Source: Aurantiochytrium sp. KH105
Taxonomy: Eukaryota > Sar > Bigyra > Thraustochytrida > Thraustochytriidae
DNA: 64,000 nt
NCBI GenBank assembly: GCA_003116975.1
Contig: BGKB01000034.1
Span: 372,001 to 436,000, forward strand
Direction of reading: 5' to 3'
The translations under genes were made by a program, and so were the position numbers. Every line of letters begins with the position of its first letter. The stretch's first letter is position 1. This document shows, piece after piece, positions 20,187 to 38,970 of the stretch. The notes under the pieces were generated by a model. The model was given only the letters and a program-made list of their open reading frames with translations, made no database searches and was not told the origin of the DNA.

Positions 20187-20233
20187 GAAGTTCGTCCCCC
20201 GAGTAATAAATCAGTGCCCAAAACGCACTTCAG
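20187..20233 (+). repeat. Dispersed 45-bp repeat, copy A
   Basis: GAGTAATAAATC and GTGCCCAAAACGCACTTCAG, with similar preceding AAGTTYGYCCCYC, are found here and again at 29383-29428 in the same orientation, 9.2 kb away. This suggests two fragments of one dispersed element. Confidence 0.75.
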
Positions 20234-21840
20234 ACATGAGCGGGGTCGCATTGCCCGGCGCGCGGTCTGTACCAGCCAGCCCGCCGTGCGCCACAGCACG
20301 CCTCGCCCCGCCTCGCCGCGCAGAGTGACGAGAGGGAGGCTTCTCTGGACGCCTGTTGGATACGTGCGAATACGTGCATTTCTAGCACTCGACTCGACTT
20401 GACGTCGCTTGACGAACGGATAGATGATCATCGTCTTGCGGAGACGCCGCCGCGCAGGCGGGTGGGCAGCCCTGATGCGCGTGCTTGGTGGACGGTGTCG
20501 TAAGCCTGCGGTGCCCATACTCGGGCAGGGGCGCGCTCATCACATTGCTCGGCGCGGAGGCTCGGAGATCAGTGAAGATGCGTGCTGGTGCTGATGGCGC
20601 GAGCAACGAGAGGCGAGGCGCGGGGAGGCCAAGACGCGGCTGTATCGATGGAGATGCGCATTCCGAGATGACCGCCTCGCGCTGCCCGGCGACTTGAGTC
20701 TTGGATTGAACAGCAGCAAGCAAGAAAGAAAGACCACCGCAGCGTCTCGGACGCTGTGAAAAGCGCTTTCGATGCGCGTCGCGTCCGCAGTCATGCTCTC
20801 TGTAACCTTATACTCCGTCAAGCTGATGTTTAGAAGCCGATGCTGGCGGCCAAGCAGAGTTCAGGTCAATGAGTCGATGCGGCCACGACCGCTCGCTTTG
20901 CAATCATGGCGTCAAACGCGCAGCAAGCGAAAGGCCTGCGCACAGCGAGAAAACATAGCAAGGAGGACCGCCGTCATGTGCTGGGTCATGCATACTGTGC
21001 CCTTTGAGGTGTGCGTGCTGGGCCAATGCCACATCGTCAAGCCTGTTGTCGCCCTGCAATGTTGCTCTGCTTTTTTGGCATATTTGAGACAAATCAGTAG
21101 CGCCAAGGCGAAGTAGTTTTTTGCAAAAGGTGTGTAGCAGACGAGCGCCGGCCTCGGTGTCGAATCTGGGATACTGTTCAGGCCAGCACCGAAGTGTCAT
21201 TGAGCCATATCACGCTTACGGGTACGATTAGGCAAGGACACTATTTGCAGCATTTGATGCGATGCAATGAGAGGCAGGATCGCGACAGGGACGGAACTTG
21301 AGGCTGGCCGTGGCTAGATGGGTCAAGTTCAGCCGAAAATTCGAGGCGCTCAGAGCAAATCGCAGTCGGCCCCATTTAGCCTCCGCGCGTCGTATCCAGA
21401 TTTGTATTTTGAGTCATGATGCCGCGGAAATTCTTGCGCGGCTCTTTCATGCCAGACAAAACTTCTTTGCGACCCTATTTATGAAGAAAAGGAAGAAACG
21501 CCGATTTGATGACGAAGCATACTTGACGATGACCACTTGAAAAGTCGGCAGACGAAGGATTGCGTTGCTACTGTTGTCGACTGTTGTCATGGCTAGGTAA
21601 GAGATGTCAGTCTCTCTAACATCCTCGAAACAGTATCAATTGGAAAAGTTTCTCATCAGTACTTGAGGTGCGCTCTCCTTGCAATTAGGTGCGTTCTGCT
21701 TGCAATTTGTGACGCCGCCGCCGCATCTTCTGTAACCATAAAAAAGACCGAGAGGGTAAAAAAGTAAAGCAAAAGTTTATAAGCGAGATATTACTACTGC
21801 GTTGCAGTAAGTGATCACAAGCAGTTAATGTCGGTCGCCC
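20234..21840. other. Intergenic, nothing recognised
   Basis: Mixed-composition DNA with only short frames below 120 codons and no family resemblance. Confidence 0.5.
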
Positions 21841-21845
21841 ACCCA

Positions 21846-21914
21846 CGCAGGCATGGCACACGGTAGCGCAAAGCCGCACCGCACGATTAGGTCCTGGGTT
21901 CGATTCCTTGGACA
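21846..21914 (+). other. tRNA-like relic (SINE head or tRNA pseudogene)
   Basis: A canonical-looking B box, GGTTCGATTCC, sits at 21897-21907. An A-box-like TGGCACACGGTAGCGC lies about 44 bp upstream. A D-arm and most of a T-arm can be drawn, but the anticodon stem does not pair and the acceptor stem has three mismatches, so an active tRNA is unlikely. It overlaps the 3' end of the minus-strand TIR-NACHT-WD40 gene, whose last residues (GIEPRT) are the translation of the B box complement. Confidence 0.45.
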
Positions 21915-24900
21915 TGCAAGATGTGTACCATCCCGCTAGCGTCGCCAATAACGTAAACACTTCCTTGGCGAGCAGTGTCCACGATTGTGTGATCCGTCGT
22001 GAAGCCTATGCCTCCGCTGAGCTTCACACGCGTTCCGTTCTCGGTATTCACCAACGTCTTTGTTCCAGGTGTGATCGTTGCCTCCGCTTCATCCGCGTCG
22101 AGTGCCTCGCCCGTTCGAGCGTTCCAGTAAAGAGTTTCATTGGGTGATTGTGATACGATGGTGTCGCCCTGTATCGCCACGCTCCTGACCCAATCAGAGT
22201 GCCCCTTCAACACGTGCTGTTCCTCGCCCGACGTAGCGTTCCAGATGCGCACCGTGTTGTCATCGGACCCACTTACGATGGTGTCGCCCTGTATCGCCAC
22301 GCTGTTGACCGGATCAGAGTGCCCCTTCAACACGTGCTGCTCCTCGCCCGACCTAGAGTTCCAGATGCGCACCGTGTTGTCATCGGACCCACTGACGATG
22401 GTGTCGCCCTGTATCGCCACGCTCCAGACCGTTCCAGAGTGCCCCTTCAACACGTGCTGCTCCTCGCCCGACGTAGCGTTCCAGATGCGCACCGTGTTGT
22501 CACCGGACCCACTGACGATGGTGTCGCCCTGTATCGCCACGCTGTTGACGTTACCAGAGTGCCCCTTCAACACGTGCTGCTCCTCGCCCGACGTAGCGTT
22601 CCAGATGCGCACCGTGTTGNNNNNNNNNNNNNNNNNNNNNNNNNNNNNNNNNNNNNNNNNNNNNNNNNNNNNNNNNNNNNNNNNNNNNNNNNNNNNNNNN
22701 NNNNNNNNNNNNNNNNNNNNNNNNNNNNNNNNNNNNNNNNNNNNNNNNNNNNNNNNNNNNNNNNNNNNNNNNNNNNNNNNNNNNNNNNNNNNNNNNNNNN
22801 NNNNNNNNNNNNNNNNNNNNNNNNNNNNNNNNNNNNNNNNNNNNNNNNNNNNNNNNNNNCACGTGCTGCTCCTCGCCCGACGTAGCGTTCCAGATGCGCA
22901 CCGTCTTGTCATCGGACCCACTGACGATGGTGTCGCCCTGTATCGCCACGCTCCATACCGTTCCAGAGTGCCCCTTCAACACGTGCTGCTCCTCGCCCGA
23001 CGTAGCGTTCCAGATGCGCACCGTGTTGTCATTGGACCCACTGACGATGGTGTCGCCCTGTATCGCCACGCTCCTGACCCAATCAGAGTGCCCCTTCAAC
23101 ATGTGCTGCTCCTCGCCCGACGTAGCGTTCCAGATGCGCACCGTGTTGTCCGTGGACCCACTGACGATGGTGTCGCCCTGTATCGCCACGCTGTAGACCG
23201 AACCAGAGTGCCCCTTCAACACGTGCAGCAAGGGGTCGCGGGGATGAGCAAGAGTGACGCGAGTGGGCTCCAGCCATGGCTCATCAGGTGTTCGTAGACT
23301 ACGTGCCAGGGGATCGTTCGAGTCGTGACCAAGACGCGCCAGAACTTGCGACGCAAGTTCGTTGGGATCGTAGCTGAGGGCATGCACGGCTTTGCTCAGG
23401 AAGCGCGGCGTATCACTTTCGGGCGCAAAGTAGATACCGAGTTCGACGCAGTCGCGAATGAGGTTTCCGATTGTGGCGCGCCTTTGCGCTTCATCGTCAC
23501 CGACAGAGATGGCGCTCTGTACCCATGCAAAGTCATTCAGGAGCTCGAAAGCCTCAGCGTGCTCGCCGCTCTTGACGAGGTGAAAGACGGCGTGACGGAG
23601 CGAAAAAACGTCGTCCCGCGAGTTGCTGCAGTAGTCGGCCAATTGTTTATGCCCGTGTTTTTTCTTCACGCAGAGCTTTTTTCCGCTCTGCTTCTTATCT
23701 GAAAGCCAGTCTGCCATCCGCTTGTGAATGAGTGCCACACGCCCATCGCCGCCTCGATATAAGAGATTGCTCGCGTCGTCGACAATATCATCCATATCAT
23801 CTTGCTCTAATTGCAGAACTGCGCTTAGTTGCTCGACACTCAGCGGTTCACGAGCAGCTACGATTGGCGCCAGGAGCATCTTGTACGTTTTCTCCCCGCC
23901 AACTTTTTCTTGCAGGCGCTCAAAGTACTCTTTGAACATGCCGCCAAGCCCGTTGGGAATGGCGTCTTTGTGAGAGATGTCTTCCAAGGTCAGCACTCCA
24001 CCTTGTTTCTCCTCGTGCATCCGGTTCAGGGTCTCGGGAAGGAAGCTCGCCCAGAGAAAGAGACCTTCGGATCGCTCGGAAAGAATCTTGGCGCAAGAAC
24101 CAACGTCTTTTTGCTCCACGGTATCTTTCATGTCGAACAGCAAATGCTCGATGTGCTTCTCGATGTCGCGAAAGTTCTCTTCGTCCTTGAGCTCCAGCAC
24201 TTTAGAATCAAGGCTATTGTTGGTGATGCCGCGTTGAATCTCGCCTTCGGGACGTGTGCTCACAACCAAGCTGAGCCATGAGGGCATCACATCCTTCCAC
24301 GTACGAATGATCTTTGTCAAGACATCGTCGCTCTTGCTGCACTCGTCGAGAGCGTCGAGCACGACCACTTGTCGCGTCTGGTCTGGGCCGAGCTTGGTTG
24401 CAGGATTGACGATAATGGTCTTGAAAAGATCCGCCAGCGTCTTTTCGCGAAGACCCTCAAAGCTTACTTGATCGAGTGCTTCAGGGAAATGGGGCACGGT
24501 CAGGCACAGTTGCCAAGCAATGCTTAGAATTGCTTCGGCAGGTGAAGCCGCGGTCCCATCATCGTGTCGAAAGAAATGGTACGCTGCCACCGAGATAGGC
24601 TGGCGATCATTTTGGCTACGGCGCCACAAGCTACGTACACGTGACGACTTTCGGCGCGGCTCGACGCGTTCATCAGCCTTGCTCTTTTTGACATCTTCGT
24701 CAGTTTTCAGAGCGCCTCCACGGTGGCAAAGCTCGGCCATGATGACGCTTTTGCCGACGCCGCCGTCGCCCACAAGAATGAAGACGGCACTCTGTTTCCT
24801 GTTGTACCAGTCGCAAAACTCGTCGATGATCCAGCTTCGCGTGCCGAGGGTAAAGTTTTCCGCCTTGCCCTTGGCCCATGCCTCGGAGCTGCACGGGTTC

Positions 24901-25982
24901 AGGCGAGGATAAATGTCGCGCATCAGAGGGGTGAGGTCAGATGAAGGCTCTGGGGTCGCAATGCGCATGCGAATGGCATTGGCGAGGCATTCGATCGCCT
25001 TGTCCGAAAAACTGCCATCTGAGCGTTCGGAAAGATCCACCGGTGCTTGCCTGGTTAGCGCGAGCTGAAATCGCCCAGTCCACCCAGTTGCGGGCTTGGT
25101 CATGTCCTTTTCCAGCGCGGCGACAACGATGCGATCAAATCGTTTGTTGCCAGCGTGTTGGAATTCCTTGAGGCAGTTGTCTGATCGATCACCATCATTA
25201 ATCTTCTTCATGTACCTTTTGGTTGCGAGAATGAGAGAAACCTTTGATCCCTCGATGCCACGTGACATGCTCTCATCAATGCTTCCTCGCATCTGCTTCT
25301 CATCAAGCCAAACCTTCAATTTGTGCTTCCTTTCGAGCTTCTTCGCAATCTTTTTGACTACATCGTGAATCTCTCCGTTTTCGCCCCATTCGTGAGACAT
25401 AAAGACGTCGAAGGTTTCAAGCTGCTCGCCCAGGGACTTGGCTCGAATCTGGCGGACGAAGGATGACAAGTCGGCCTTTTCCGGATCCCTGTAGTCGAAG
25501 TAAAGCTCGTTGGCCATGTACCAGCTAATTGCACCGCGCCAGGATTTTTGCCAACGCATCGTTTCGTCCACGACAACCGGGACGAGGTCATTTGGCAGCT
25601 CGTCAGCCACGGCCTTAATTAGTGCCTCGTTCTCTTGAAGTGCGGCACTCACCAGAACGGCCGCAACAACTTTCGCGACTTTGGCTTGTTTCAGTGCCTC
25701 AGCAGCTTCGCTCGCGGTGCGCACGGGCACGCTGAGGCGAGGCTGGATTGCGTCGATTAGCTGCTCGGCCAAGGATTCGTCGGCGGGATCGTGTACGACG
25801 AGGACGGCGACGTCGGCGAGCACCTCAGGGGGGTCGAGAAGCGCCTCCGACTGTTCAGACGCGGCAGTATGGAGCTCTGCCTCCGCCTGCGCGGCATCGT
25901 TCACCTCGCGCTCGACGCTTGATCCTTCGTTCCCTTGCCCTCTGCCGAAGACGGCGTAGATGCTTTTTCTCAATCTTTCCAT
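21887..25982 (-). CDS. TIR-NACHT-WD40 STAND receptor (NLR-like), interrupted by assembly gap
   Basis: Starts at ATG 25982 (MERLRKSIYAVFG). Residues about 56-165 form a first TIR-like alpha/beta segment. About 190-300 is a clear TIR domain (FDVFMSHEWGENGE; BB-loop-like MRGSIDESMSRGIEGS), with Glu273 in NCLKEFQ aligned to the NADase glutamate of plant and SARM1 TIRs. A NACHT NTPase follows, with Walker A GDGGVGKS at 405-412, Walker B VVVLDALDE at about 540-548 and a STRPEG sensor. Then come helical repeats, and from about residue 919 near-identical 40-residue WD40 repeats (KGHSxxVxSVAIQGDTIVSG). A 240-base run of N breaks the repeats and reading continues in the correct frame only if the true gap length differs from 240. 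By family, such proteins act as oligomerising sensors in immunity or allorecognition-type cell death; that role is inferred. Confidence 0.88.
22180..23225 (-). repeat. Near-identical 120-bp WD40-coding repeat array
   Basis: Copies repeat exactly every 120 bp. At least three full units lie upstream of the gap in gene order and four downstream, differing almost only at a few codons: the two residues after KGHS, the residue before the next SV (SGSVYSV, SDWVRSV, SGTVWSV, SGNVNSV, SDPVNSV) and GSxDxT. Because 120 is divisible by three, the opposite strand also stays open. Confidence 0.97.
22620..22859. other. Assembly gap (240 N)
   Basis: Lies inside the WD40 array. From the flanking phase, the true missing length should be 71 plus a multiple of 120 bp, which 240 is not, so the run length is a placeholder and the repeat number is unknown. 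Confidence 0.97.
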
Positions 25983-27124
25983 GGTGCAAGTAGCCTCACC
26001 GACCTTTGATTCGACCGCGCGCCCCTTCTCGCGCGCGGTTTTCCCTTCTCGCGCGCGTCTGCCCCGCCCCGAGCGCCGCTCCCCTTGCCCCCGCGACTGC
26101 GCGTCCTCGACCTCGCTCTCCGTTCGCGTGCGGCGAATTGGTTCTGCTGCTCGCTGTTCCTACTAGTACCGAGGCGAGAGGAAATTGTCATTTTCATGAA
26201 AGCTCTAGAATACCCCCTGATACCACCTCTTAACATGCAGAGTGTAAACGACATTCTGCTGCTGGAGGGGGCTAAACGATAATTATTCGCCGCGCGTGCT
26301 GCGCATTTGTTCCGAAGCCCTTCTTCTTTCCATATAAAATCGGGTATGTGTGTGCGCGTGCACAACGCAGCCGCCACTGCCAATGGCGAGCGGCCGTTCT
26401 CCGGCGTGTCCAGCGTGCACACGTCGCGCGAGCCCGTCCGTCCGCAGCCTTTCCCACTCACCGCATCCGCGAGTGGTGGTGGGCCTGAAGGAAAAGGAAA
26501 GCGGGCCGGGCTTGAAAGGGGGGAAGAGGGATGGCATGACAGTGAGTGAAGGACGAAAGTGTGTGCTTGCGGCCAGGCGGTTGCGGACGCTGTCCTGGCT
26601 GCAGCAGCAGCAGGCGGCCGAAAGAGAGTGCCAGCTGTGTCAATCACGTTGAACGGGCAACCGAGCCTGCCAGCGCTTTCACGATGCGGCTGACGCGCCT
26701 ATCAGCCAACCAGCCCAGCCAGATGACGACACTGTATCGACAAACAAACAAACAAACAAACAAACGGTCTGTCGGGAACGGGCGCGCGCCCGCCATCTGC
26801 CCTTGCGCATTTTGTAGGCCCTTTCCCCCTCCGACGCCAATCTTTCTGGTGTGCTCTGCCTGGGGCGGCCGGCCAGATTCTTCTCTTTATGATCTCGGTA
26901 GAAAGCACTAACTGTAAACCCAAAAGGCGTGAAGCAGCCAGTCCAGCTGTGGAAGCAGGCCGAAGACAACTCGCAGAGCAAATTTCCAGCGCACGGCCTG
27001 CTCTGTCCAACAGCCAGGCGTTGTGCGGAAGAAGAGAGAGGCACGAACAGGCCTGCAGAGCGCCCCGCTTGGCGAGCCAGTATCGGTCGAGCGAAGGCGC
27101 AAGTCAACCTGTTTCTGAAGTGCC
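25983..27124. other. Intergenic upstream of the NLR-like gene
   Basis: GC-rich leader (25983-26110), then mixed DNA. Contains a (CAAA)n run (about 26741-26765). No gene recognised. Confidence 0.5.
26741..26765. repeat. (CAAA)n microsatellite
   Basis: Six tandem copies. Confidence 0.9.
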
Positions 27125-27505
27125 ATTCAGCAAGTCGTGCAATTCGGCTTGCAAGTGGCAGCCAGTCATCTGCTCTACTAGCATTCAGTCATTGCAGCAG
27201 TGACCAGCCGGCCTCACCGTCAACCCATTGAGCGAGGCATTGGCACAACACCCAGATTGCAAGTGTTGCTCGACACATTTGCAAGTGCAGAACCGCCCAT
27301 CGCGAGTGCAGAATCCGTGGAACAGCATCTAGTCGGCAAGTGAGTCTGCAACGCTTGCAAGTGTGGTAAGTAGAGCTCGACTTGATGCAAGTGAAGAATT
27401 TAGCCTCGCAAATGCATATTTTGCCGTGTGAACCAGTGCTGAAAACAGTGCGGGGCGCGCATACCTCAGCGATCAAATCTGAGGAGCATACATACCACAG
27501 TGTGA
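27125..27505 (+). repeat. Left long terminal inverted repeat
   Basis: Pairs with 28997-29269. Relative to the right arm it has an extra 22 bp (one TTGCAAGTG unit at about 27266-27287) and an extra 88 bp at 27338-27425. The inner boundary is near GAGGAGCATACATACCACAG. TTGCAAGTG-like words begin at about 27257, 27279, 27300, 27334, 27355 and 27385. Confidence 0.88.
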
Positions 27506-27957
27506 AAGCCAAAGACAGGCAATGTGCAGCGCTTGTACCATAGCAGAGTCAATGGACTTGTGGAGGAGCGTGTGGAGCATTCACACCACAGCAGCAGGGA
27601 GAGCACCGAAAGCAGGCTGTGGAGCGTGCGTTCAACAGCACGAAGGCCAGCATGGGAACAGGTATAGTATGGAGAGCCGCGACAGCAACAAAGCCTAAGG
27701 GTTGAAAGCAGGTTTTAAGGCATGCGCATACCACAGCAATAACAACAGAGTAAACAACAGAGTGGTTGCGAATGCTCCGCAGTTTGACTTCAGTGCAAGT
27801 TCGCGGCACGGGGTGATGCGGGCGCTCTCGACAATAGCTAGTGTCAGTCGTAGTCGAGCGATGTGGCTTGCAAATGCAGAATTAGCTTTGCCAGTCATTT
27901 GCCCCACTGGCAGCTAGCCATTGGACACAAGCACCAGATTTTCAAGCGCCGAGTCCA

Positions 27958-29068
27958 TTAAGCAAAAAAGTGCGCACTGAAGTCTTGCAAGTCCTGCGCG
28001 CGATCTGCAGCCGTTGCCTTGGTGGTAGCGTTCTTGAACCGGACCAGGCGAACGTCCCCGCTGTCACTCGTTACAAAGCTAAAGGCCAGGTCATCCGGTA
28101 CGTCCACGCGGAGGGCGACACCTAGTCCATGCACCGCAATGAGAGTCTCGCACGCCTTGTCCACCACGGCCTCTGGGTACTTGCTAGGATTGTCCTCGTA
28201 GAGATGCCACAAATCACGCCCCTCGAAGGTGGTTGCGACAATAAAGTCGGAAAAAAGGTGGACACCTCCATAAAGGAACCACGGCACATGCTTCGACCCC
28301 TAGAGAGGCCGAAGAGCCTCGTACACCTCAATTTCATTCGGGAACGCGCGATGAAGCCTCATTTCTTCCGCCTCTGTTCCATCGTTCGAGTCTTCGTATG
28401 GATCGAGTTCCGAGTTCCGGTGTCTTCACGGCGATCATTTGGTCCAGCCCGCCGGTGTTCACGACCAAAATGTACCCAAAATTGTCTTCGCTCTCCGAAA
28501 GCTGATCCCTCACCCCACCGTAGGACGGAAAGTCCGCTTGAGAGAGAGGGAGAAGGTTGTCGCGAAGAATGGCCTGGGGAGAAGGAGGCGTGGGAGCAGC
28601 TGTATCGTCAGACCCATCGGTTGCCACGCTGTCGATTTGTCCTGACGAGACCTGGCTCCCGCCAACAGCGCCAGTGCCAGCGGCTCGGGGAAGTGGAGGA
28701 TCCTGCCGCGCATTCGCGTGTGCGGCGTACACTTGCTCGTAAACCTGCTTCCATGCAGGGCCCATCGAGTTGAGCCCGTCAACCTGGCCCAACGAAGAAA
28801 GGAATTCATCGCTTACTTCCAGTTGACATCTCTTTGAAAGCTTGAGGAGCAACCTAAAATAGGCGAACTTTGGATTGTCTCTTGTGCCGTGGCCTGTGCA
28901 CTCGTAGCCACGAGTAATGTTCAGGTCGTTGTTCGCGTCCAGCTTGAGAAACCAGGTGATGTTACCCGTGCTTAGAACCCCATGCTTGCAGAAAGTTCGC
29001 ACTGCGGTATGTATGCTCCTCAGATTTGCTATCGCTGAGATATGCACGCCCCGCACTGTTATCAGCAC
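27958..29068 (-). pseudogene. Broken kinase-fold-like gene inside the inverted-repeat element
   Basis: Two open stretches (28334-29068, about 244 codons, and 27958-28287, about 109 codons) carry kinase-like features: an AVK-type lysine motif in the first, and WFLYGGVHLF, a hinge-like EGRDLW, a catalytic-loop-like LIAVHGLGV and a final acidic/DF-like segment in the second. This order resembles the kinase-like proteins common in fungi and in oomycete Crinkler C-termini. The gene looks broken, with at least two breaks, and is treated as a fossil. Its 5' end begins within the right inverted repeat. Confidence 0.5.
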
Positions 29069-29269
29069 TGGTTCACACGCCGACTAGATGCTGTTCCAGG
29101 GATTTTGCACTTGCGATGGGCGGTTCTGCACTTGCAACCTGGGTGTTGTGTCAATGCCTCGCTCAATGGGTTGACGATGAGGCCGGCTGGTCACTGCTGT
29201 ACTGACTGGATGCTAGTAGAGCAAATGACTGGCTGCCACTTGCAAGCCGAATTGCTCGACTTGCTGAAT
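28997..29269 (-). repeat. Right long terminal inverted repeat
   Basis: Reverse complement of most of 27125-27505, with about 90 percent or better identity by eye outside the two indels. Carries TGCACTTGCG at 29106-29115 and TGCACTTGCA at 29127-29136, 21 bp apart. Confidence 0.88.
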
Positions 29270-29780
29270 AGCTATTGTACACACTTGGAAAAGGAAAACA
29301 GCCCTATTTGACAAGCGATTGAACGGAAAGTTCGTGGAGACGCGCCCGTGCGGAAGACGCCGCAAGTGTCCAAATTCCGCGCAAGTTTGCCCCTCGAGTA
29401 ATAAATCGTGCCCAAAACGCACTTCAGAAAAAGCAATAAACCAAACAATTGCTATGATTTTTGACGTATAAAAAGGAGATTGACTCGTGCTTAACTGTAA
29501 GTCAATCAATTGTTTGACTTAGGTCACCCTTTTCTTGTGTCTGTCTCTCATGCTGCAGACGTCGGTCCACCTTAAGACCTGGTTCGCTGGGTCCCCTGAC
29601 ACGCAGCGATTACGTTTGCAATGCCCCTTCAAGTAAGGTGGTTTGCTCGTGAATTTGGGTGATTCGTGATCCTCAGTATGGCACCTAACCACCAAACCGG
29701 CACGCGGAGGCAAAGAGCGAACGTTGTTGCGGTGCACGTGAGAAGGGTGCGGCACAGAGGTCGCGCATGGTGAGGTCCCT
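29270..29780. other. Spacer between inverted-repeat element and piggyBac-like gene
   Basis: Contains copy B of the dispersed 45-bp repeat (29383-29428) and probably the left end of the piggyBac-like element. Candidate TTAA sites are at 29491 and 29571, but I could not match terminal inverted repeats to the right side. Confidence 0.45.
29383..29428 (+). repeat. Dispersed 45-bp repeat, copy B
   Basis: Second copy of the sequence at 20187-20233 (GAGTAATAAATCGTGCCCAA and ACGCACTTCAGA); one base shorter. Confidence 0.75.
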
Positions 29781-32700
29781 ATGTCTGATGCCTCACGTCA
29801 TCAGCCTGGCCACCAGCCTGGCCACAACGTGAGCAGTACGACCGAGAGGCAACCTGATCATCGTCCGAGACACAATGAGCCAGGTCTCACGGTGAGCGCC
29901 GCAAGCACAACTTTGGGCGCACGAGTTAAACAGTGCAGTGCATGCCACAAGTTTGGTCACCGACGGGTTACGAGCAGGGACTGCGATTTTTATCAGCCTA
30001 GGTCTCGAAACGCAAGCTCGTCGCATGGTACCTTGCAAGATCCTGGTCGCTCGGCGCTGCAAAGCAGCTTTCAGAGTAGCTCAAGTGCAACAGCCAGGAG
30101 CACTTCGACAAATGATTTTTCGACGCGTGCCCCATGCTCGTCCCAGAACAGCTCGCAAAGTGACTTTTCCCTTGCTTCGCAAAGTGCCTCACAGAGCAAC
30201 TCGAGCGAGAAGGGCGGAAACACAAGATCGCCTTCTGGGCAAAGCTCTGCTCGTTCCAAGGCATTTCATGCAACGTGGCAAAAACTCAGCACATTGGATC
30301 CGGAGCTCTTGTCTCGCGAAGAAGCCAGCGAGGTTTGTGGCATCAATGCAGGTGCTCGACAGCACGTCGAAAGTGTCGTCGTCAAAACCCGAGCCATGCT
30401 GGAACGGGAGTGTAGAATCCCCGCAACCGAGTGTGATCTTTTTCTGGCTCTTCTCGGCCATGATTCCATCGATATGCTGCGCCGTGCGATGACCTGTAGC
30501 ATGAAGCGTGACGACAAGGAAAAACAAGTGAAAGAGTGGGAGTTTTACTCATTTCTTGCGCAAATACTTTGGGCCACCGGCGCTTCGAAGATGAGCAAGG
30601 AGCACGCTTTTCATTGGCTGACGTTGCTCATGGAAGCGAAGACGGAATATGGCCGCGGCGCCATTTTGACACTCTCCCGATTTAATTTTCTCCAGAAGCA
30701 CCTTCGTGGATTCCAAGACGAAGGAGATGCGACCAGGGCCGGTCATCAAGATGTGTCAGACATGGCTAGGCAGATGCATCCTCTTGAAAAGACCATTGCC
30801 GATCCGACTTTGAAGTTGTTCGCCGACAAGTATCTCCGCGTCACTATCGATGATCGCAATTGTGGCACGGTCTCCGCAAGCAACCCCGTGAACACTTGCA
30901 GGCCGAGAAAGCGGCATCAAAACGGGGCTGGCTCCGGCGCAAGCGCCGATGCAGTGTTTCGCGTGAAGCTCTTCTCCATTCTCTATGACAGGAGCTACAA
31001 TCAAGTGACTGTGCTCACAAAGATTCTCGAAACGATCAAGGAAAAAATAGGCGGTGATGTTGCTGGCATCGAGGTTTGCTTAGATCGGGGTTATCCGTCT
31101 CCTGCTCTATACGAGCTCTGTGCAAAGCTTGGGTACTCTCTGATTGTGGTGAACGATACCGAGAAACAACAAGGTTGCCCATTTCTTTCAGCAACTGCAG
31201 CGCGAGAGCGAATGTCGAAATATGCAAGCCGTGGTTGGTCTATGGATGGTGCCATGGTGAACATCAGCAGTCAATTCGTGATTGATGACAAGCCAACGCT
31301 TGGCGGCCAAATTTTCGCGGCGAAGAAAAGTCTTACTTCCACAGCTAAAGGCAGGAAAGTGACAGCCTATGCGTATGCAGTTCGCGAATTTGGCAACGCA
31401 AAGCACACTCACATTCATCGTTTTGTGACAATCTTGCCAGCGGAGATGATGCAGCGATTTCGCAACGGATTCGTTTTTGAGACCTATGGCCGTTTACGGC
31501 GTGATGATGCGGCCCAAGTTCTCTTTTATCCTGAGCCAGAGGCGCAATCGTTAGGAAAAGATTTTCTCGACAGCCCTCGATTTCAAGATGCGAGCGCCGG
31601 GTCTATCGATACTGACTTTGGCGGTCTTGAAAGTGAGGAAGAAGAAGAGGAAGAAGAGGAAGAAGAGGAAGAAGAGGAAGAAGAGGAAGAGGTTGAACGT
31701 AGAGTTGTGGCTGACTCCGCCCAGGGCAATGATTCTTTCGTCGAGTCGGACCTTTATAGCGACGAAGACAGCACCTTTGCGAGAGACAACTCTGTCGTCG
31801 ACCTTGGAGATGAAGAACTGAACGAGTGTGCGCGCGATGCTCTCGACAAAATACGCGATGCGGAAAGGCTAACCCGCACTGAAGTCGAACCATTTGTCTC
31901 TGCTTGTGTGAATCCACTGACGGCAGGGCAGCGATGTGCTGATTGGTTCATCTTCAGAATGCTCATGATTACGGGAACAACCGCGCACGACATTGCCAAG
32001 GAATCCAGAGCTTGCAGGCCTTATCTTTTCGAGGATCCAGCTCGCGCCAAAGCGGTTGCAGACCTGTCCTCGTCTACCTTGAGCGAAACGCTGTGCAAAA
32101 GCTGGTTTCATGTGAAACGTGGAAACGAAAGCCAGCGGAAGTGCGCTTTATTGCTCGGCACCCTCAATGAGACCGGCATCGTTGCTCAGCTCCGCAAAAT
32201 GACTTTTGTGGATGCTGTCTTCGATATTGGTCTCGTACAGAAGAAGGGAAGACCTGGTCTTGGCGTGAGCGCGGATGGCATCATTATAATACGGCCCCCA
32301 AATTCGTTGTCCCATGCTGAGCGAGTCGTCGCCCCCTTGGAGATCAAGACAAAGATAGCGAGCCGAACATTGAATGAGTCATCGCACCTGGGTCGAAAAT
32401 ACGGAATCTACGTGCATTGCATCGTAGGCTCTCCGGCATGGTTCGATCTGGTCCCGACGGAGCACCGTGGACAGCTCCTTCACCAAGCAAGTGTCTTCGA
32501 TGTTCCATTTGGAGTGTATTGCGTCGGAAGCACCCGGAAAATTATGCATGTGGTGCTTATTCAGTACCCAGCGCATGTTCGAGCTAACTGGCTTTCTGCT
32601 TTCGAGGATGTTGAGCGCAGATTCCTAAACTGGGCTTACGTTGATTCTTCAGGTTCTGAAGCTCCATCAATTCCAGAGTACTACACCAGCGGTCATCGAG

Positions 32701-33494
32701 AGGTATTGCAGTCCCGTTTGCCGCTTTGGCGCGTTTATCATGCGCGTCGAAAAGACAAAGGTATATTCATGCCTGTCAGGCTGACGCGCTCTCTTGTTCA
32801 GTTCTACTACAGTGCTTCCAAACAGGGAGTGGACGGGCTTGACGACTACGCTGAGCACTTCGACAGTCGCACACTGAAAGTCCACTGGGAACAAAAAATA
32901 ACTCTCGGGCTCATTACTGACGTGTTTATCAATTCACTGGTTGTCTGGCGCATGTGCAAGGTGTATGACCCCTCCATGTGGGTTGACTTGCGAAAATTTC
33001 TCACATTGTGTTCGCGAAGAGTTCGTCTGACCGACTTCCTCGAAAAGGTTGTCTTTGGTCTTCTCGCACACGCTGAGAAATTGAAATCTCGCGACATGGC
33101 GGTGCCGGAGCCTGACGTGGGAGCTTTGACGACGGCCTCATGCATTCAAAACGCTTCCAGAGGATATTGTTTATCCCAAGAAGAACACGAGCAGCTCCGA
33201 CTTCCAAATGGAAAACGTGGGATCATCGGGTTAGCTAACACGACAGCGCTCAAGCGTCTACGTCTCTCGAGCAACATTCATAATCATGAGAGTACCAAGA
33301 CAGCTCCAAATTGTGTTGTCTGTGGCAAAGGAGCCCGCACCCGTTGTACCTTTTGTAATGTCGTTCTGCATCGTCAGCTCCGCCATTCTGTCAATCAGGC
33401 TGTATCATGCTGGGACCAGTGGCACAGGAATCAATTCGTGGAGCGTAGAGATTATCAAAAGAAGAGTGGCCCAAGAAGCAACTCATCAGACTAA
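29781..33494 (+). CDS. PiggyBac-like transposase with inserted YqaJ-like PD-(D/E)XK nuclease domain
   Basis: 1,237 residues, uninterrupted. Residues 51-70 form a zinc-knuckle-like CSACHKFGH motif, followed by a Ser/Gln-rich linker to about 160. DDE_Tnp_1_7-like catalytic parts: VTIDDRNCG (Asp about 356), VCLDRGYPSPALYEL (Asp about 434) and YYSASKQGVDGLDDY (Asp about 1018), the last followed by a DVFINSLVVWRM helix as in piggyBac. Between the second and third aspartates lie about 580 residues. They include a Glu-only run (about 618-638, coded by GAAGAG repeats at 31635-31690) and a segment with QRCADWFIFRMLMITGTTA, GVSADG (about 829-834), PLEIK (about 853-857) and HRGQLLHQASVF, the layout of YqaJ-type exonucleases. 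The C-terminus (about 1179-1216) is a piggyBac-type Cys-rich finger, CVVCGKGARTRCTFC then SCWDQWH. A TTAA at 33511 may mark the right end. Cut-and-paste at TTAA is expected of the family. Confidence 0.75.
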   Translation: MSDASRHQPGHQPGHNVSSTTERQPDHRPRHNEPGLTVSAASTTLGARVKQCSACHKFGHRRVTSRDCDFYQPRSRNASSSHGTLQDPGRSALQSSFQSSSSATARSTSTNDFSTRAPCSSQNSSQSDFSLASQSASQSNSSEKGGNTRSPSGQSSARSKAFHATWQKLSTLDPELLSREEASEVCGINAGARQHVESVVVKTRAMLERECRIPATECDLFLALLGHDSIDMLRRAMTCSMKRDDKEKQVKEWEFYSFLAQILWATGASKMSKEHAFHWLTLLMEAKTEYGRGAILTLSRFNFLQKHLRGFQDEGDATRAGHQDVSDMARQMHPLEKTIADPTLKLFADKYLRVTIDDRNCGTVSASNPVNTCRPRKRHQNGAGSGASADAVFRVKLFSILYDRSYNQVTVLTKILETIKEKIGGDVAGIEVCLDRGYPSPALYELCAKLGYSLIVVNDTEKQQGCPFLSATAARERMSKYASRGWSMDGAMVNISSQFVIDDKPTLGGQIFAAKKSLTSTAKGRKVTAYAYAVREFGNAKHTHIHRFVTILPAEMMQRFRNGFVFETYGRLRRDDAAQVLFYPEPEAQSLGKDFLDSPRFQDASAGSIDTDFGGLESEEEEEEEEEEEEEEEEEEEVERRVVADSAQGNDSFVESDLYSDEDSTFARDNSVVDLGDEELNECARDALDKIRDAERLTRTEVEPFVSACVNPLTAGQRCADWFIFRMLMITGTTAHDIAKESRACRPYLFEDPARAKAVADLSSSTLSETLCKSWFHVKRGNESQRKCALLLGTLNETGIVAQLRKMTFVDAVFDIGLVQKKGRPGLGVSADGIIIIRPPNSLSHAERVVAPLEIKTKIASRTLNESSHLGRKYGIYVHCIVGSPAWFDLVPTEHRGQLLHQASVFDVPFGVYCVGSTRKIMHVVLIQYPAHVRANWLSAFEDVERRFLNWAYVDSSGSEAPSIPEYYTSGHREVLQSRLPLWRVYHARRKDKGIFMPVRLTRSLVQFYYSASKQGVDGLDDYAEHFDSRTLKVHWEQKITLGLITDVFINSLVVWRMCKVYDPSMWVDLRKFLTLCSRRVRLTDFLEKVVFGLLAHAEKLKSRDMAVPEPDVGALTTASCIQNASRGYCLSQEEHEQLRLPNGKRGIIGLANTTALKRLRLSSNIHNHESTKTAPNCVVCGKGARTRCTFCNVVLHRQLRHSVNQAVSCWDQWHRNQFVERRDYQKKSGPRSNSSD

Positions 33495-33616
33495 AAGAGT
33501 ATAAAAAGTTTTAACCGGATTCTCTCCGAGTTGTCCAATTTAGGTCGTTTCTTCATTCTTTACCCCCAAAAATTATTTCCAGAAAATCATCGGGATATCG
33601 TCAGGCATCACACCTT

Positions 33617-35080
33617 TTACCACTTTGCAGGGAGCTCGTCCTGAGGACGATCGATTAGTTTTGCGAAAGAAATGACGAGCCTGGCATAGCTGACCATGTC
33701 ATCTTTGATGACCTGGCCAATCCCATTATTCGCATCGTAAAAGCTGTCAATGGACGATATCGCTCGAAAGTAGCCAACGGGATTGGAAAAGACGTCGACA
33801 AAGTGGCAGCGAGGATTTCCATCCGCGTCCGGAGTCCCCGGAATAAAGACGTTCCCCACGGTCACCGAGGGCGTCCGAGCTGTGGTCAGCAACTCCAAGT
33901 GCTCCTTGGTAAAGAAACCTGCCCGCTCAAACGTTTTTGTAATATCTGCAAAACTGGTAATGGGTAGTGGAATGAGCCCGGTCGAGGGAATCTGAGGTTC
34001 AGACTGTGCGTCTGTTCCTCCGGCCAATGTTGGGAGAATATCACGCGGATCCAGCATGCGGTGCTCGAAAGTGAAACCGAGTAATGAAATAAGTGAGACA
34101 ATGGTTTCTCCCGTACTCATGCGCGATCGGTCCTCGGAGTACTGGTAGCATTTGAGTCGAGCATCAAGATATTCGGAGCACTCACTCAATTTGGGCGCGT
34201 CAAAGTGTACAAAGGCACGCTTGACCCGGTCTGGCGCCTCGTGTGCAATCTTGTTCCGCCATATAATGGGAATGGAAGCCCAGAACTTGTCCGCGAGCTT
34301 GTTTGCATCCCCGGGGATATTGTGGATCTCAATGCGGACGTTGAAGCGTTTTGTGTGTTCAGGCGCGGCGCCGATTGGAAGCATCTGGAATCTAAAGCGG
34401 AGATCCAAGCCATCCCCGAGCGGCACGACAGGGCCTTCGGTCCAAGAAGGGGACGAATGGAGGAGGCCTGCAGCATCGTTCACGCACTTGTTCGTGTACC
34501 CTCTCAGCTCCCTTACGCGTTCTTCGTGCAGGACTGGTGGCGACGACGTGGTGGCATCGACGATGTTTTGAATTAATTTCTTGTACTGTGCGATTTCGTT
34601 GCGCAGGAGCTCGTTCTCCCGGGAGATGTCGGGTTTGTGCACTTCGTTGGCCGAAAGCAGCTTGATCTGCAGCTCTGCGATGCGCTCGAGGAAAATGTGG
34701 CGCTGGTCTTCCAGCTCTCGGTTTCTGCGTCGCAGGCCCTCGAGCGTGGCTTTGCGCTTCTCGCGGCTGCGCTTGCAGGCGATGGCATTTTTGCTCATGG
34801 TGGCCCTGAGAGCATCGTCCTTTTTCCCCTCCTCGTTGAGACCTTTCTGCTGCCAGTCCCGGCTCTCGTCGGCCTCGACGTCCTCGCGCCGAGGTCGTTT
34901 TTTGCGGGCCGCCTCGTCCCTCTCGAAGCCGGCGAGTTCCGCGTCGAGGTGCTGCAGGTCGGCGCACCCGGACTGCTGCTGCTCCTTGAGCGCTGCGATC
35001 CTCGCCTCGAGGTCCTCCAGGATCCACCGGCCGCCCTCGGGCTCCTGCTTCACGCGCTCGGCCGCCTGCGCCGCCTCCAT
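33617..35080 (-). CDS. bZIP transcription factor 6 of the array
   Basis: 487 residues from ATG 35080 (MEAAQAAERVKQEPEGG). The in-frame ATG at 35380 adds an Arg/Pro/Ala leader translation and is rejected. A V-K-Q-E sumoylation-type motif lies at 10-13, a coiled segment at 20-55 and an RKKRPRRE nuclear localisation-like cluster at 59-66. Basic region at about 96-113 (KNAIACKRSREKRK), again with Cys at the Ala239-equivalent position, then zipper, ENELLRNEIAQYKK, and AAGLLHSSPSW in place of IGLxHTSTxW. The C-terminal domain keeps the family layout but is clearly diverged from genes 3-5. It lies 123 bp from the end of the piggyBac-like gene. Confidence 0.9.
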   Translation of the reverse strand: MEAAQAAERVKQEPEGGRWILEDLEARIAALKEQQQSGCADLQHLDAELAGFERDEAARKKRPRREDVEADESRDWQQKGLNEEGKKDDALRATMSKNAIACKRSREKRKATLEGLRRRNRELEDQRHIFLERIAELQIKLLSANEVHKPDISRENELLRNEIAQYKKLIQNIVDATTSSPPVLHEERVRELRGYTNKCVNDAAGLLHSSPSWTEGPVVPLGDGLDLRFRFQMLPIGAAPEHTKRFNVRIEIHNIPGDANKLADKFWASIPIIWRNKIAHEAPDRVKRAFVHFDAPKLSECSEYLDARLKCYQYSEDRSRMSTGETIVSLISLLGFTFEHRMLDPRDILPTLAGGTDAQSEPQIPSTGLIPLPITSFADITKTFERAGFFTKEHLELLTTARTPSVTVGNVFIPGTPDADGNPRCHFVDVFSNPVGYFRAISSIDSFYDANNGIGQVIKDDMVSYARLVISFAKLIDRPQDELPAKW

Positions 35081-35337
35081 GCCTGCTCTCCTCGCCGCGC
35101 CCGCCCGCGTCCCACTCGGCTCCCGCCGCGGCCTCCGCGCACGCCGCGGCACTGCGCGGCCCGGCCCGGCGCGGCCCGGCTCGGCTGGCCCGGCTGGCTC
35201 GGCCTGCCCGCTCGGCTTTGCTTGCGTCGCGTTTCCGCGCCGGGCCATGCCTGGCTTCGTAACGATCGCGCGACTGCGACCGGGCCTGGCGCGAAGCAAA
35301 GCGGCATGGAAGCAAGCAAGCCAGCAAGCAATTCGCG

Positions 35338-35397
35338 CACGCAAAAGCACGATCCCAAAAACGCAGGCACGCAAAAGCACGATCCCAAAAACGCAAG
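35338..35397. repeat. Two tandem 30-bp units in bZIP-6 leader
   Basis: CACGCAAAAGCACGATCCCA plus AAAACGCAGG, then the same with the last bases AAG. Only one or two differences, so a recent duplication. Confidence 0.93.
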
Positions 35398-36046: not shown

Positions 36047-37759
36047 TCAGGTGGAAGGAAGCGAAATGGGCGTGCTGGTCGACTTCTCATCGTCCGTGCC
36101 CGCGACCGAGTTTGTGTGCGTGGCCATGCAGGATTCCCATAGGTGCTCCGTGTCAGAGACCATCGCGCTCAGGAAGGCGTCCGCGAGCTCGTTGTCTTTT
36201 GTGATCGCGTGCTCAGTGGAGCGAATACCGGAAAAGTATCCCACTGGCATAGAGATGACGCTGATGCAGTGGCAGCGCGGCGCGCCCGAGCCCGGGTCCG
36301 GCGAACTCGGAAGGATCACGTATCCATGAATCAAAGAGGTGTCCATGAGGCGCGTGTCCGAGGTGGTCTCGCTTGCGTCCATGAGCTGCGCTTTGATAAG
36401 CTGCTTGGTGAACTCGCTCGTGGCGATGATCGAGCACGAAGCGACGCCGTCCGCCACCGACTCGCGAATCTCGGCGCGACTCTCGTGAGCAGCCGAAGCG
36501 CCATCGCCCGTGCAAAAAAACGCGTGTGGAGATAGCGTTCGTTCAGCATACGTTCGGGCAAAAAGCGCGCGCACCGTCTCAAAGGTGTTGTCCTCCCTCT
36601 CGTGCTTTTCGTAATACGACTCGACGTCGAGTTCCTCGTCGAGCATCTCGAGAGCCCTGGCAAACTCGTCAGACACGAAACGCTCGACGCCGCGCTCGAT
36701 GCCATCCCGTTTCGTTCGGTAATCTTTGAGCTGCCTTGAGCCGAGATGTGTTCGATTAAGCTCCCACATAGCCTTGCCCATCTCCTGTGCATCGAGCTCA
36801 AAGTTGTACGCCTCGAGGCGCAAGCCGAGGCGCTTGATTTCCTCCCGACGCGCACCTTCGGGGAGAAAGTGGTACTGTATGCGCATCTGATGTCGTGCAG
36901 TTTCGGGGACGAAAGAGTGTTCTGGCCAATTCGTGGATGTGTGAACGAGGCCAATGACTTGCGCCAGACTACTGTCAATGCCTGACTTGAGGAGACGAAC
37001 GCGCTCCTCGAGAAGCATTTGTGGGGCCTCCCGCGTCGCGCGCACAATGCTGGACACGAACATTTTGTGTTTGCGGATCTCGGCCCGCAAAAGCTCGTTT
37101 TCGCGCGCAATATCGATGCTGCCTGCGTGGCGAAGCGTGGACACCTCGAGCTGAAGCTCGGCAATGCGTTCCAAAAAGAGGTCCCGGTCCTGCTCGAGCT
37201 CCTCGTTGCGCTCGCGTAGACGCTCCATGTCGGCCTTGCGCTTCAGACGCGACCTTCGCGAAGCTTCGGCATTTGTGTTCCGTCGTCGCACCTTGGAATC
37301 TGCGGCCTCGCTGTCGCCAGAATCGTGGCCCTGGCCCTGGCCCTGGCCCAACTTGCAGGTCGCACGAGACTTTGCCTTGCTGCGAGAGGGCTTCTTGCTG
37401 GAGACGGAAGAGGCCGTGCAGGAGGCGCCATCGTACTGGCACGAGGACTCGTTGTCGCCCGAGGATACGCTCTGCAGGCCGTCGCCGAACGCGTCGCACT
37501 CCTCGGCCGTCGCGAGCGCGATCCCTCCGGCGTTGTCCCCATTGACCGCCGCGAGGCCGTCTCGGATCGTGGGCGGGCCCCAGCGCGCTGCGCCGCCGCC
37601 CGGCCCGGGCACGGCCTCCTGCTTGACGCCGGCCATGCGCAGCCCGGCGCCGCCGACGACGTCCTCGTCCAGCAGGTCCTTGAGCTCCGAGAGCACCCCG
37701 TCGTCCTGGTCCTCGCCGTAGAAGTAGTCCGAGCTCGCGACGGCGCCGCTGGTCTTCAT
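36047..37759 (-). CDS. bZIP transcription factor 7 of the array
   Basis: 570 residues from ATG 37759 (MKTSGAVASSDYFYGEDQDD). The in-frame ATG at 38350 is rejected because the extra 197 residues are leader-like. An acidic N-terminus is followed by V-K-Q-E at about 45-48 (same sumoylation-type motif as gene 6) and a Gly-Gln repeat near 138-144. Basic region at about 161-178 (NTNAEASRRSRLKRKADMERL) with Ser at the Ala239-equivalent position. Zipper, LLRAEIRKHKM, QVIGLVHTSTNW, and a C-terminal domain with SPHAFFC, VASCSIIATSEFTKQL and SLIHGYVILPSS. Last member of the array; the next gene in the same orientation is an unrelated RhoGEF. Confidence 0.92.
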   Translation of the reverse strand: MKTSGAVASSDYFYGEDQDDGVLSELKDLLDEDVVGGAGLRMAGVKQEAVPGPGGGAARWGPPTIRDGLAAVNGDNAGGIALATAEECDAFGDGLQSVSSGDNESSCQYDGASCTASSVSSKKPSRSKAKSRATCKLGQGQGQGHDSGDSEAADSKVRRRNTNAEASRRSRLKRKADMERLRERNEELEQDRDLFLERIAELQLEVSTLRHAGSIDIARENELLRAEIRKHKMFVSSIVRATREAPQMLLEERVRLLKSGIDSSLAQVIGLVHTSTNWPEHSFVPETARHQMRIQYHFLPEGARREEIKRLGLRLEAYNFELDAQEMGKAMWELNRTHLGSRQLKDYRTKRDGIERGVERFVSDEFARALEMLDEELDVESYYEKHEREDNTFETVRALFARTYAERTLSPHAFFCTGDGASAAHESRAEIRESVADGVASCSIIATSEFTKQLIKAQLMDASETTSDTRLMDTSLIHGYVILPSSPDPGSGAPRCHCISVISMPVGYFSGIRSTEHAITKDNELADAFLSAMVSDTEHLWESCMATHTNSVAGTDDEKSTSTPISLPST

Positions 37760-38970
37760 GGCATCAATCCCGCACGCGCGCGCACGCAAATCCTCGCGCC
37801 TCGCCGCGCCTCGCCGCGCGCGCCGCGCGCGCCGGGGTGCCGGACGCGAGGCGGCTCGAGTCCTGGCCTCGCGCGCAGGCCCGAAAAATGCCGCCAAATC
37901 CGGCGCCCGGCCGGTGCAGACCGCGCCAGGGCGCGCGCGGGAGGGCGCGCGCGGGGGGCAGGCGGGCAGGCAGGCAGGCAGCCAGCCAGCCAGGGAGGGA
38001 CAGGCGCGCCGCGCGCAGGGACGCACGCCGCGCGCAGGACACGCCGCGCCGCCGCCGCCGACTCTTCCCTGTTCTGCCTTTGCTTCTTGTTGGCCTCGCT
38101 CGCTCGCTCTGCTTCTCCGCCTTCTCCGCCCGCGCCGCAGAAGACTGCGCAACCCTTTTGGGCGCAACCCTTTTCGGGGTTTTACTCTTTCGAGGACGGC
38201 GAGCGCACCCCCGTCCCGGAAGAGACGAGACCTCTTGGGAGCTGGACAGGAGAAAGGGAAATGGAGTGAAGGAATGAGGGAAAGAGGCATCACATTGTGG
38301 ACTTGGAGGGGGTGTGAGAGAGAGGCAGAAGAGAAACGAGGTTTTGCCACTCAAGTGTCGAAAGCACGCGCGCCTTTACACGTGCCGGTTGTACATATGC
38401 ACGCGACGACACGTAATCTGTAGACGCCGAGAGACGTAGGCAACAAGTGTGGAGAGCAGCTGCAGGTATGGAAACCGAGACAAATGTCGATTCGTACAAT
38501 GGGAGAGTATGATACATTACAGGCGGACTTGGAGCTGAAAGCTAACAAGTATCTTGAGCTGAACAGCTTTCCCTCATCGGTAACGACTTGACAGATCGAT
38601 CATCACCCTCAATTCTCTTTCCTCCCTACTATTTGTGTTAATCTCATCTTACATTGAATCTGAGCTCAAGCAAGAGACGCAAGAGAGACGCAAACGCGCC
38701 ATAGCCATGACTAGCTTCGTATGGCGTGACTCTTTAGTGTGCTAAAAGCAGCTGAGATCTGTTTGTCGCTGTCGACCACGTCGACGAGTTCCTCAAGCAC
38801 GACGTCACCTATCTCGATGGTACGTACTAAAACAAAGATCAATGAATTATGGTTATGATGAGAATGGGGAATCGCAAAGGAGCGACAAAAAAGAAAAAAC
38901 AAAGAGAGAGAAAGGAATGAAAGAAGCGAAAAAGAGAAGCTCGGGCGGATAGGTCTAGTGATCAAATGAG
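37760..38970. other. Intergenic: bZIP-7 leader and RhoGEF 3' flank
   Basis: The GC-rich leader (37760-38270) has GGCAGGCAGG and CCAGCCAGCC repeats near 37960-37995. AT-richer DNA follows to 38970 and is probably the 3' flank of the RhoGEF. No gene. Confidence 0.55.

Follow-up and report, generated by a model that had tools for sequence, protein, structure and literature searches.

How a single protein-coding frame can carry both halves of a cut-and-paste transposase and, between them, a segment resembling a phage exonuclease is the question raised by a locus of the thraustochytrid Aurantiochytrium sp. KH105. The locus lies in a window of 64,000 nucleotides, which is the whole stretch of DNA analysed here (GenBank assembly GCA_003116975.1, contig BGKB01000034.1, designated C34:372001-436000), taken from an assembly of 76.0 Mb in 367 contigs in which relatives were also sought. 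As judged from sequence comparisons, the open reading frame (ORF) at 29781-33494 of the forward strand very probably encodes a piggyBac-related transposase with a YqaJ/RecE-type exonuclease placed between its second and third aspartates, at a point that seems to follow the usual insertion domain. The explanation as a whole, which combines a transposon lineage, an embedded nuclease and the processing of donor ends by the latter, is given slightly better than an even chance.

The ORF encodes 1237 amino acids from ATG to TAA with no internal stop, in agreement with a previous sequence-only reading of the locus, which had reported a frame open for 1,237 codons and had placed the second and third aspartates about 580 residues apart; 583 residues were measured between D435 and D1018. 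From the N to the C terminus and all on the forward strand, the protein comprises a zinc-knuckle-like CCHC motif (C52, C55, H60 and C68; 29928-29990), a Ser-rich stretch, the N-terminal half of the transposase core (30306-31580), an acidic linker formed by a Glu run from residue 619 (31635-31697), the YqaJ-like segment (residues 699-960; 31875-32660), the C-terminal half of the core with its GVD segment (32760-33170) and a Cys/His-rich finger domain (C1178, C1181, C1189, C1192, H1197, C1210 and H1215; 33258-33425). The putative catalytic aspartates are D357/D358 in the motif VTIDD (354-358), D435 in CLDRGY (codon 31083-31085) and D1018 in GVDGLDD (codon 32832-32834), while the candidate nuclease motifs consist of W722/R726, ITGTT at 730, GTLNE with E797, SADG with D832, EIK with E854 and K856, and QLLHQ with Q898/Q902.

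A protein search of the same assembly returned at least 45 matches, and the 29 stretches fetched around all 45 yielded 17 open frames, window included, of 1,115-1,362 codons (the fetched ones measured mostly stop to stop) that carry the whole layout. Left outside this set were L030, L031, L032 and L036, which have broken frames, and L037 and L038, which are C-terminal pieces. The 17 ORFs align end to end, with 461-629 residues between the columns of the second and third aspartates and with identities to the window protein of 94% (the partner copy L010 on C65), 46-47%, 34% and 22-25% in the family alignment. Since the layout recurs in all 17 long ORFs, it is not a chance reading. The seven C-terminal Cys/His finger positions are invariant throughout, and all four residues of the CCHC motif, which matched Pfam zf-CCHC_6 weakly (E 0.35 on a fragment), are present in 15 members; the acidic linker, encoded over a 9-bp tandem repeat, differs in length among members. 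Moreover, the transposase parts and the nuclease, each placed in a tree of its own, gave an identical 6-against-11 split of the 17 rows with support of 100 in both, some inner forks being open and long branches being flagged in the two trees. Because both parts split the members alike, they appear to have been inherited together, and a single old fusion is likely to stand behind the family.

The case for both domains rests on family profiles because the matches of the window protein alone are weak; profiles A3-A5 were built from 13 of the 17 members, excluding the degenerate L022, L023, L025 and L026. Against the transposase family DDE_Tnp_1_7, the window protein reached E 0.0012 and 18.7 bits, under the cut-off of 22.4. 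The same family was matched at E up to 1 by 5 of the 17 full members and by 7 of the 13 N-terminal halves (best 4.9e-5), and DDE_Tnp_1 by 5 of the 13 halves (best 4e-7); in the genome scan with DDE_Tnp_1_7, the copies C184, C85 and C65 exceeded the cut-off. The profile of the C-terminal half, compared with PDB chains, matched piggyBat (9c0f) at E 3.6e-4 over two stretches, one around D413, where the third-aspartate segment aligns to piggyBat 402-461, and the other in the C-terminal finger; T. ni piggyBac (6x67) matched weakly (E 6.5), as did three MYND-finger chains (E 3.4-4.9), and the N-terminal half produced one chance-like match only (E 0.18 over 25 residues). The proposal that the flanking parts and the Cys-rich finger are of piggyBac type is thus supported by family profiles on both sides of the split. 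The same genome also holds a piggyBac ORF pair, C193/C261, in which DDE_Tnp_1_7 is matched uninterrupted (E about 1e-28), and two more ORF pairs, C95/C278 and C80/C11, that match in their N-terminal part only. In piggyBat, the catalytic D309 and D413 are 104 residues apart, according to the portion of the structural report available (PMC11707139).

Regarding the inserted segment, the window protein gave no Pfam YqaJ match in a whole-protein scan, and its nuclease fragment reached E 0.047 (14.4 bits, cut-off 22) against Pfam YqaJ and E 0.0035 against a RecE-like PHROG. At family level, the RecE-like PHROG 434 was matched by 11 of 13 nuclease domains at E up to 1 (best 4.9e-8), another exonuclease family, phrog_149, by 9 (best 1.1e-4), and Pfam YqaJ (PF09588) by 5 (best 6.7e-5), the L018 domain exceeding the Pfam cut-off with 22.6 bits versus 22. 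A small family, SgrT, was matched by 8 of the 13 (best E 0.0059) over about 20-35 residues where shown, and these matches are taken as chance. The family nuclease profile was further compared by hhalign with viral YqaJ proteins, for which 49 of at least 80 loci were examined, 42 non-redundant ORFs kept and 34 hand-chosen for alignment A6. The comparison gave a probability of 89.2% and an E of 2.2e-6 (for one comparison) over 183 columns, with the W..R..T, G..E, SxDG, EIK and Q motifs aligned in order; the flanking parts A4 and A5 used as controls gave 0.1%, the reversed profile 0.76%, and the score of 49.2 compares with at most 34.4 in 100 column shuffles. When the window domain was aligned by MAFFT with 28 viral YqaJ proteins, the SADG and EIK motifs came out shifted. 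In phages, tblastn of nuclease domains gave no match for two queries and matches at E 0.5 to 8 for three, one of which (H1) was without annotation. Taken together, these comparisons support the inserted segment as a YqaJ/RecE-type exonuclease domain with piggyBac flanks, as the arrangement of motifs inside the split had led the sequence-only reading to propose. The profile comparisons that it had suggested came out in favour for the family and weak for the window protein by itself, which falls below both the YqaJ and the DDE_Tnp_1_7 cut-offs. Neither of the two refuting outcomes that it had named was seen, the support being of sequence and not of structure.

A stand-alone YqaJ/RecE-like gene pair was also observed in the assembly, at C11:464384-464926 and C50:135031-135573 (L045), with E about 1e-32, and a 116-amino-acid fragment of it showed identities of up to about 50% with recombination proteins of phages. 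This host gene was considered as a recent donor of the nuclease and is not supported as such, as the 116-amino-acid fragment, from which the first motifs are missing, reached an hhalign probability of 1.2% to the transposon domain.

The deletion derivatives of the family were evidently mobile in the past. Six of them lie on six contigs: four of 1,713-1,735 bp (C103, C21, C256 and C195; 99-100% identical, with the C103 copy as query), a truncated one (C35) that has an internal junction in common with the four (window 30364/32898), and a smaller one (C192). The left end has the sequence ATAT-CCCGATAATT, and the right end, which five of them possess, is AATCATCGGG-ATAT. Searches with the left flanks of L018 and of five of the six derivatives each led to a second place in the assembly (that of C256 being among 21 repeat matches); in these six partner empty sites, a single ATAT was found at L012, L015 and L017 and a single ATCT at L013. 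Similarly, a scan for target site duplications at 21 loci, in which each of the 256 4-mers was tried as the duplication next to exact repeats of at least 8 bp, gave pairs for 17 4-mers (23 pairs). ATAT was the sole 4-mer found in three loci, namely L018 (8 bp, CCCGATGA), L028 (12 bp, CCCCATCCTTTT) and L032 (13 bp, CCCTATCTCAGAG), the remaining 4-mers reached at most 10 bp and two loci, and TTAA gave no pair. The tips of these repeats are CCCGAT, CCCCAT and CCCTAT, respectively, so that CCC is common to all and CCCT occurs in L032 only. The ATAT target is probably a property of the lineage, because L018 and L028 belong to different deep clades, and in all likelihood the family inserts at ATAT with a 4-bp target duplication. 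Copies flanked by TTAA, which the sequence-only reading had suggested looking for, were not found, ATAT occupying their place; neither TTAA-bounded ends around the window ORF nor terminal repeats sought from the window alone gave anything convincing. By definition, piggyBac elements end in repeats of 12-19 bp that carry the terminal motif CC[C/T]T, and TTAA is the target reported in the part of the source at hand (PMC2872659). As the target duplication is ATAT instead of TTAA, the family is filed as a piggyBac-related lineage and not as canonical piggyBac, both sequences being 4-bp palindromes with a central TA.

A possible mechanism can be drawn from these elements. piggyBac forms a TTAA hairpin on its ends, and in piggyBat a protein hairpin at 382-399, just downstream of the insertion domain, touches the transposon tip, as described in the available portion of the structural work (PMC11707139). 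In the family, about 40 residues separate the end of the nuclease from the segment that aligns with piggyBat 402, and since the nuclease lies near this tip-contacting hairpin it could meet the flanking donor end. The DDD core, that is, the three aspartates, would cut and join at ATAT as piggyBac does at TTAA, leaving a 4-nt overhang and closing the transposon end as a hairpin. Once the element has been excised, the nuclease would encounter, from its position by the tip-contacting loop, the donor DNA that flanked the element and would resect the 5′ strands there. Such resection would steer the donor break to repair copied from a homologous sequence, away from the precise rejoining usual for piggyBac, and this repair would restore the element at the donor site and thus raise its copy number. 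That the nuclease trims or processes the donor end after excision is the most likely of the roles considered, and is proposed with reserve, at somewhat less than an even chance. The wider scenario of a transposon clade that cuts itself out at ATAT, resects the donor ends and forces donor-restoring repair, with some copies later kept by the host, is more doubtful and must be regarded as rather unlikely in its full form.

Several observations weigh against this reading. The piggyBat hairpin contact comes from a pre-synaptic complex that its authors, in the accessible part of their report, call catalytically incompetent (PMC11707139). Regarding the nuclease, the L027, L028, L033 and L035 domains of the second clade, scanned apart, stayed without a Pfam YqaJ hit up to E 1; full-length proteins matched YqaJ in 3 of 17 cases (best 0.002); the window domain alone reached 7.0% against the viral YqaJ profile over 113 columns with EIK unaligned; and the nuclease alignment matched no PDB chain up to E 10. 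A genome-wide scan with PHROG 434 at E 0.01 recovered the stand-alone gene pair only and no transposon copies, and a single-sequence AlphaFold2 model of residues 699-980 (no alignment), with a predicted local distance difference test (pLDDT) value of 35, was too poor to use. Regarding the target, ATAT repeats were found in just 3 of the 21 loci, a scan under looser conditions (repeats of 10 bp that start with CC, one mismatch allowed) returned L020 with GCCG and the pair L033/L034 with TGGG, the empty sites of L014 and L018 are diverged and not interpretable, and the flank of L015 lies in repeated sequence (21 matches). The window copy itself is without the left terminal repeat and has its right flank alone in common with C65. 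Finally, the three aspartates and the five nuclease residues E797, D832, E854, K856 and Q898 are both complete in only four members (the window, L018, L028 and L033); the DDD set is complete in 8 of 17 and incomplete in 9, and the five nuclease residues are all kept in 6 of 17, so that loss of the nuclease residues does not prevent the ORF from persisting.

Among the alternatives, the one that survives best sees in the window copy a host gene that has been domesticated, like the PiggyMac-like paralogs of ciliates, and not the transposase of a live element; it is a serious contender, falling just short of an even chance. The recognisable element copy extends over 29428-33598 (+). A TATAAAA string at 29467-29473 (+), found by string search, is a possible core promoter for the ORF, and AAAATCATCGGG, with ATAT after it, forms the right terminal repeat at 33583-33598 (+), of which the terminal CGGGATAT (33591-33598) is the end common to five of the six deletion derivatives. 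These derivatives match the window from 29451 and carry extra left-end sequence that is absent from the window copy. In the C65 partner, DNA similarity likewise sets in at this truncated end (29428) and continues across the right flank, with its bZIP-type gene, as far as 35967. Over the ORF, the ratio of nonsynonymous to synonymous substitution rates (dN/dS) of this pair is 0.276, and over the nuclease it is 0.210, the lowest of the four parts measured. Neither copy has stops, of which neutral change at the dS rate would give about 12 and of which every one of 2000 simulations had some, and the C65 copy carries D435N. For pairs with both flanks in common, dN/dS was 0.235 (L022/L023), 0.227 (L025/L026), 0.461 (L021/L024) and 0.483 (L033/L034), with dS of 0.076-0.094 for these four pairs. 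Ciliate paralogs with incomplete catalytic triads, which are most of those known there, are likewise under purifying selection, according to the sections available of that study (PMC9942806). Nevertheless, the window copy has retained all of its catalytic residues and the right terminal repeat, its relatives were mobile, selection may predate immobilisation, and, as the left flanks are not shared, the two loci are shown only in part to descend from one. This copy has probably become fixed in place and is probably constrained, and it possibly serves the host as a retained host-level gene.

In a second alternative, the nuclease domain is a passenger that serves DNA binding or architecture, with no need for its catalysis. 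The retention of the five residues in little more than a third of the members speaks for it, as do the pairs L022/L023 and L025/L026, which have lost most of both residue sets and yet show dN/dS near 0.23; several losses elsewhere are single-residue changes in otherwise open frames, such as the D435N of C65. However, the four members that keep all five nuclease residues together with the aspartates span both deep clades, and the window/L010 pair is most constrained precisely over the nuclease, which makes a mere passenger unlikely. As a separate observation, the L025/L026 protein, with most transposase and nuclease active-site residues lost, an open frame and a dN/dS of 0.227, is a candidate domesticated protein, and in L022 and L023 the C-terminal Cys/His finger region is tandemly duplicated inside the protein.

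In Tn7, the PD-(D/E)XK nuclease TnsA, which is an endonuclease, works beside the DDE transposase TnsB. A comparable role here would have the embedded nuclease cut the non-transferred strand at the element ends, in place of the piggyBac hairpin step. It would accord with the fusion of a PD-(D/E)XK-type domain to a DDE/D transposase at a site that may look onto the transposon tip, and the 4-bp duplications are compatible. This possibility is nonetheless improbable, given that the domain matches exonucleases (YqaJ, RecE), with no TnsA family in the Pfam and PHROG scans, and that a palindrome of 4 bp with TA at its centre as target, together with CCC ends, is what the ordinary piggyBac hairpin route would be expected to give. 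An assembly artefact or a chance open frame as the origin of the layout, which the weak single-sequence matches of the window protein might suggest, has a negligible probability and is ruled out by the family, with its 17 long ORFs of the same part order and its trees agreeing on the deep split.

The surroundings of the window copy present further features. A 47-bp stretch at 20188-20234 recurs with 91% likeness at 29383-29428, where its second copy ends as the element body starts, and inverted repeat arms (27122-27506 and 28996-29272; 84-92%) lie just left of the element and probably represent another element, a similar piece being present in L032. Two bZIP-type genes on the reverse strand, at 33617-35380 (-) and 36047-38350 (-), adjoin the element and are similar in DNA to 8711-8922, 11952-12437, 14723-15208 and 16917-17273, which suggests that they are part of a larger local array. 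The stretch 21000-27100 is a high-copy assembly repeat (126 matches) that includes 120-bp tandem repeats, whose translation we take to be WD40-like. At the examined loci in general, flanks and genes often occur in pairs of roughly 85-97% DNA identity, as in a strongly heterozygous or hybrid genome.

If the preferred reading, that of a transposon lineage with an embedded nuclease acting on donor ends, is correct, its consequences would reach beyond this genome. piggyBac transposases usually excise precisely, as stated in the part of the source at hand (PMC2872659), and this leaves the donor site to simple rejoining. A relative equipped with a strand-resecting nuclease would therefore offer a direct, testable link between transposition and the choice of repair route, by which a cut-and-paste transposon would become effectively copy-making. 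Moreover, the ATAT preference offers a natural contrast against which the recognition of TTAA by piggyBac-type enzymes can be viewed.

In comparison with known systems, the family resembles piggyBac and piggyBat in the match of its N-terminal core, the GVD segment around the third aspartate, the Cys/His domain at its C terminus, the duplication of 4 bp of target and the CCC with which its ends begin, and differs from them by its ATAT target in place of TTAA and by about 360-525 extra residues, relative to the piggyBat spacing of 104, that hold the nuclease between the second and third aspartates. With the YqaJ/RecE-type exonucleases of phages and viruses it shares the W..R..T, G..E, SxDG, E-x-K and Q-helix motifs in the same order, whereas its domain is embedded in a transposase, has a wider SADG-EIK spacing and carries an extra segment before the Q helix. 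The TnsA/TnsB pair is alike in combining a PD-(D/E)XK nuclease with a DDE transposase, but TnsA is not inserted into the catalytic core. Teratorn of medaka, reportedly a piggyBac-herpesvirus fusion (PMC5601938), also joins a piggyBac element to other genes and differs in being a 180-kb element that carries most of a herpesvirus. The ciliate PiggyMac and PiggyMac-like proteins comprise several piggyBac paralogs under purifying selection, most of them with incomplete DDD triads, and no embedded nuclease is mentioned in the accessible sections of the study (PMC9942806).

No piggyBac-YqaJ fusion was found in open-licence full-text literature, a search that left nr, Repbase, preprints and most subscription papers outside; the open-licence papers in which both terms occur describe none in their available portions (PMC7826175, PMC13289751, PMC11403445). 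The sequence-only reading, made without searches, had likewise named no described family with such a layout. Pattern searches of viral contigs (tblastn-confirmed at E 1e-3) and of prokaryote genome contigs likewise gave no relatives. On the information available, the closest described case is ISL2EU of the PHIS superfamily, a DNA transposon of eukaryotes that itself supplies a protein with a YqaJ domain; in the accessible part of its description (PMC4482050), YqaJ is encoded by a separate ORF of function unknown in 2015, next to a THAP/HTH/DDE transposase, and the duplication is AT. Donor-end resection by the present family, if real, would suggest a function for these YqaJ proteins of ISL2EU. 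The two groups are alike in being DNA transposons with a YqaJ domain, and the family stands apart from ISL2EU and PHIS by its single ORF, piggyBac-type core and ATAT target. We rate it as a new arrangement of known parts at a new target site, an earlier ATAT-targeting piggyBac perhaps existing in the literature, in which the transposase core of one known system and a probable exonuclease domain of another have come to be encoded by one frame.

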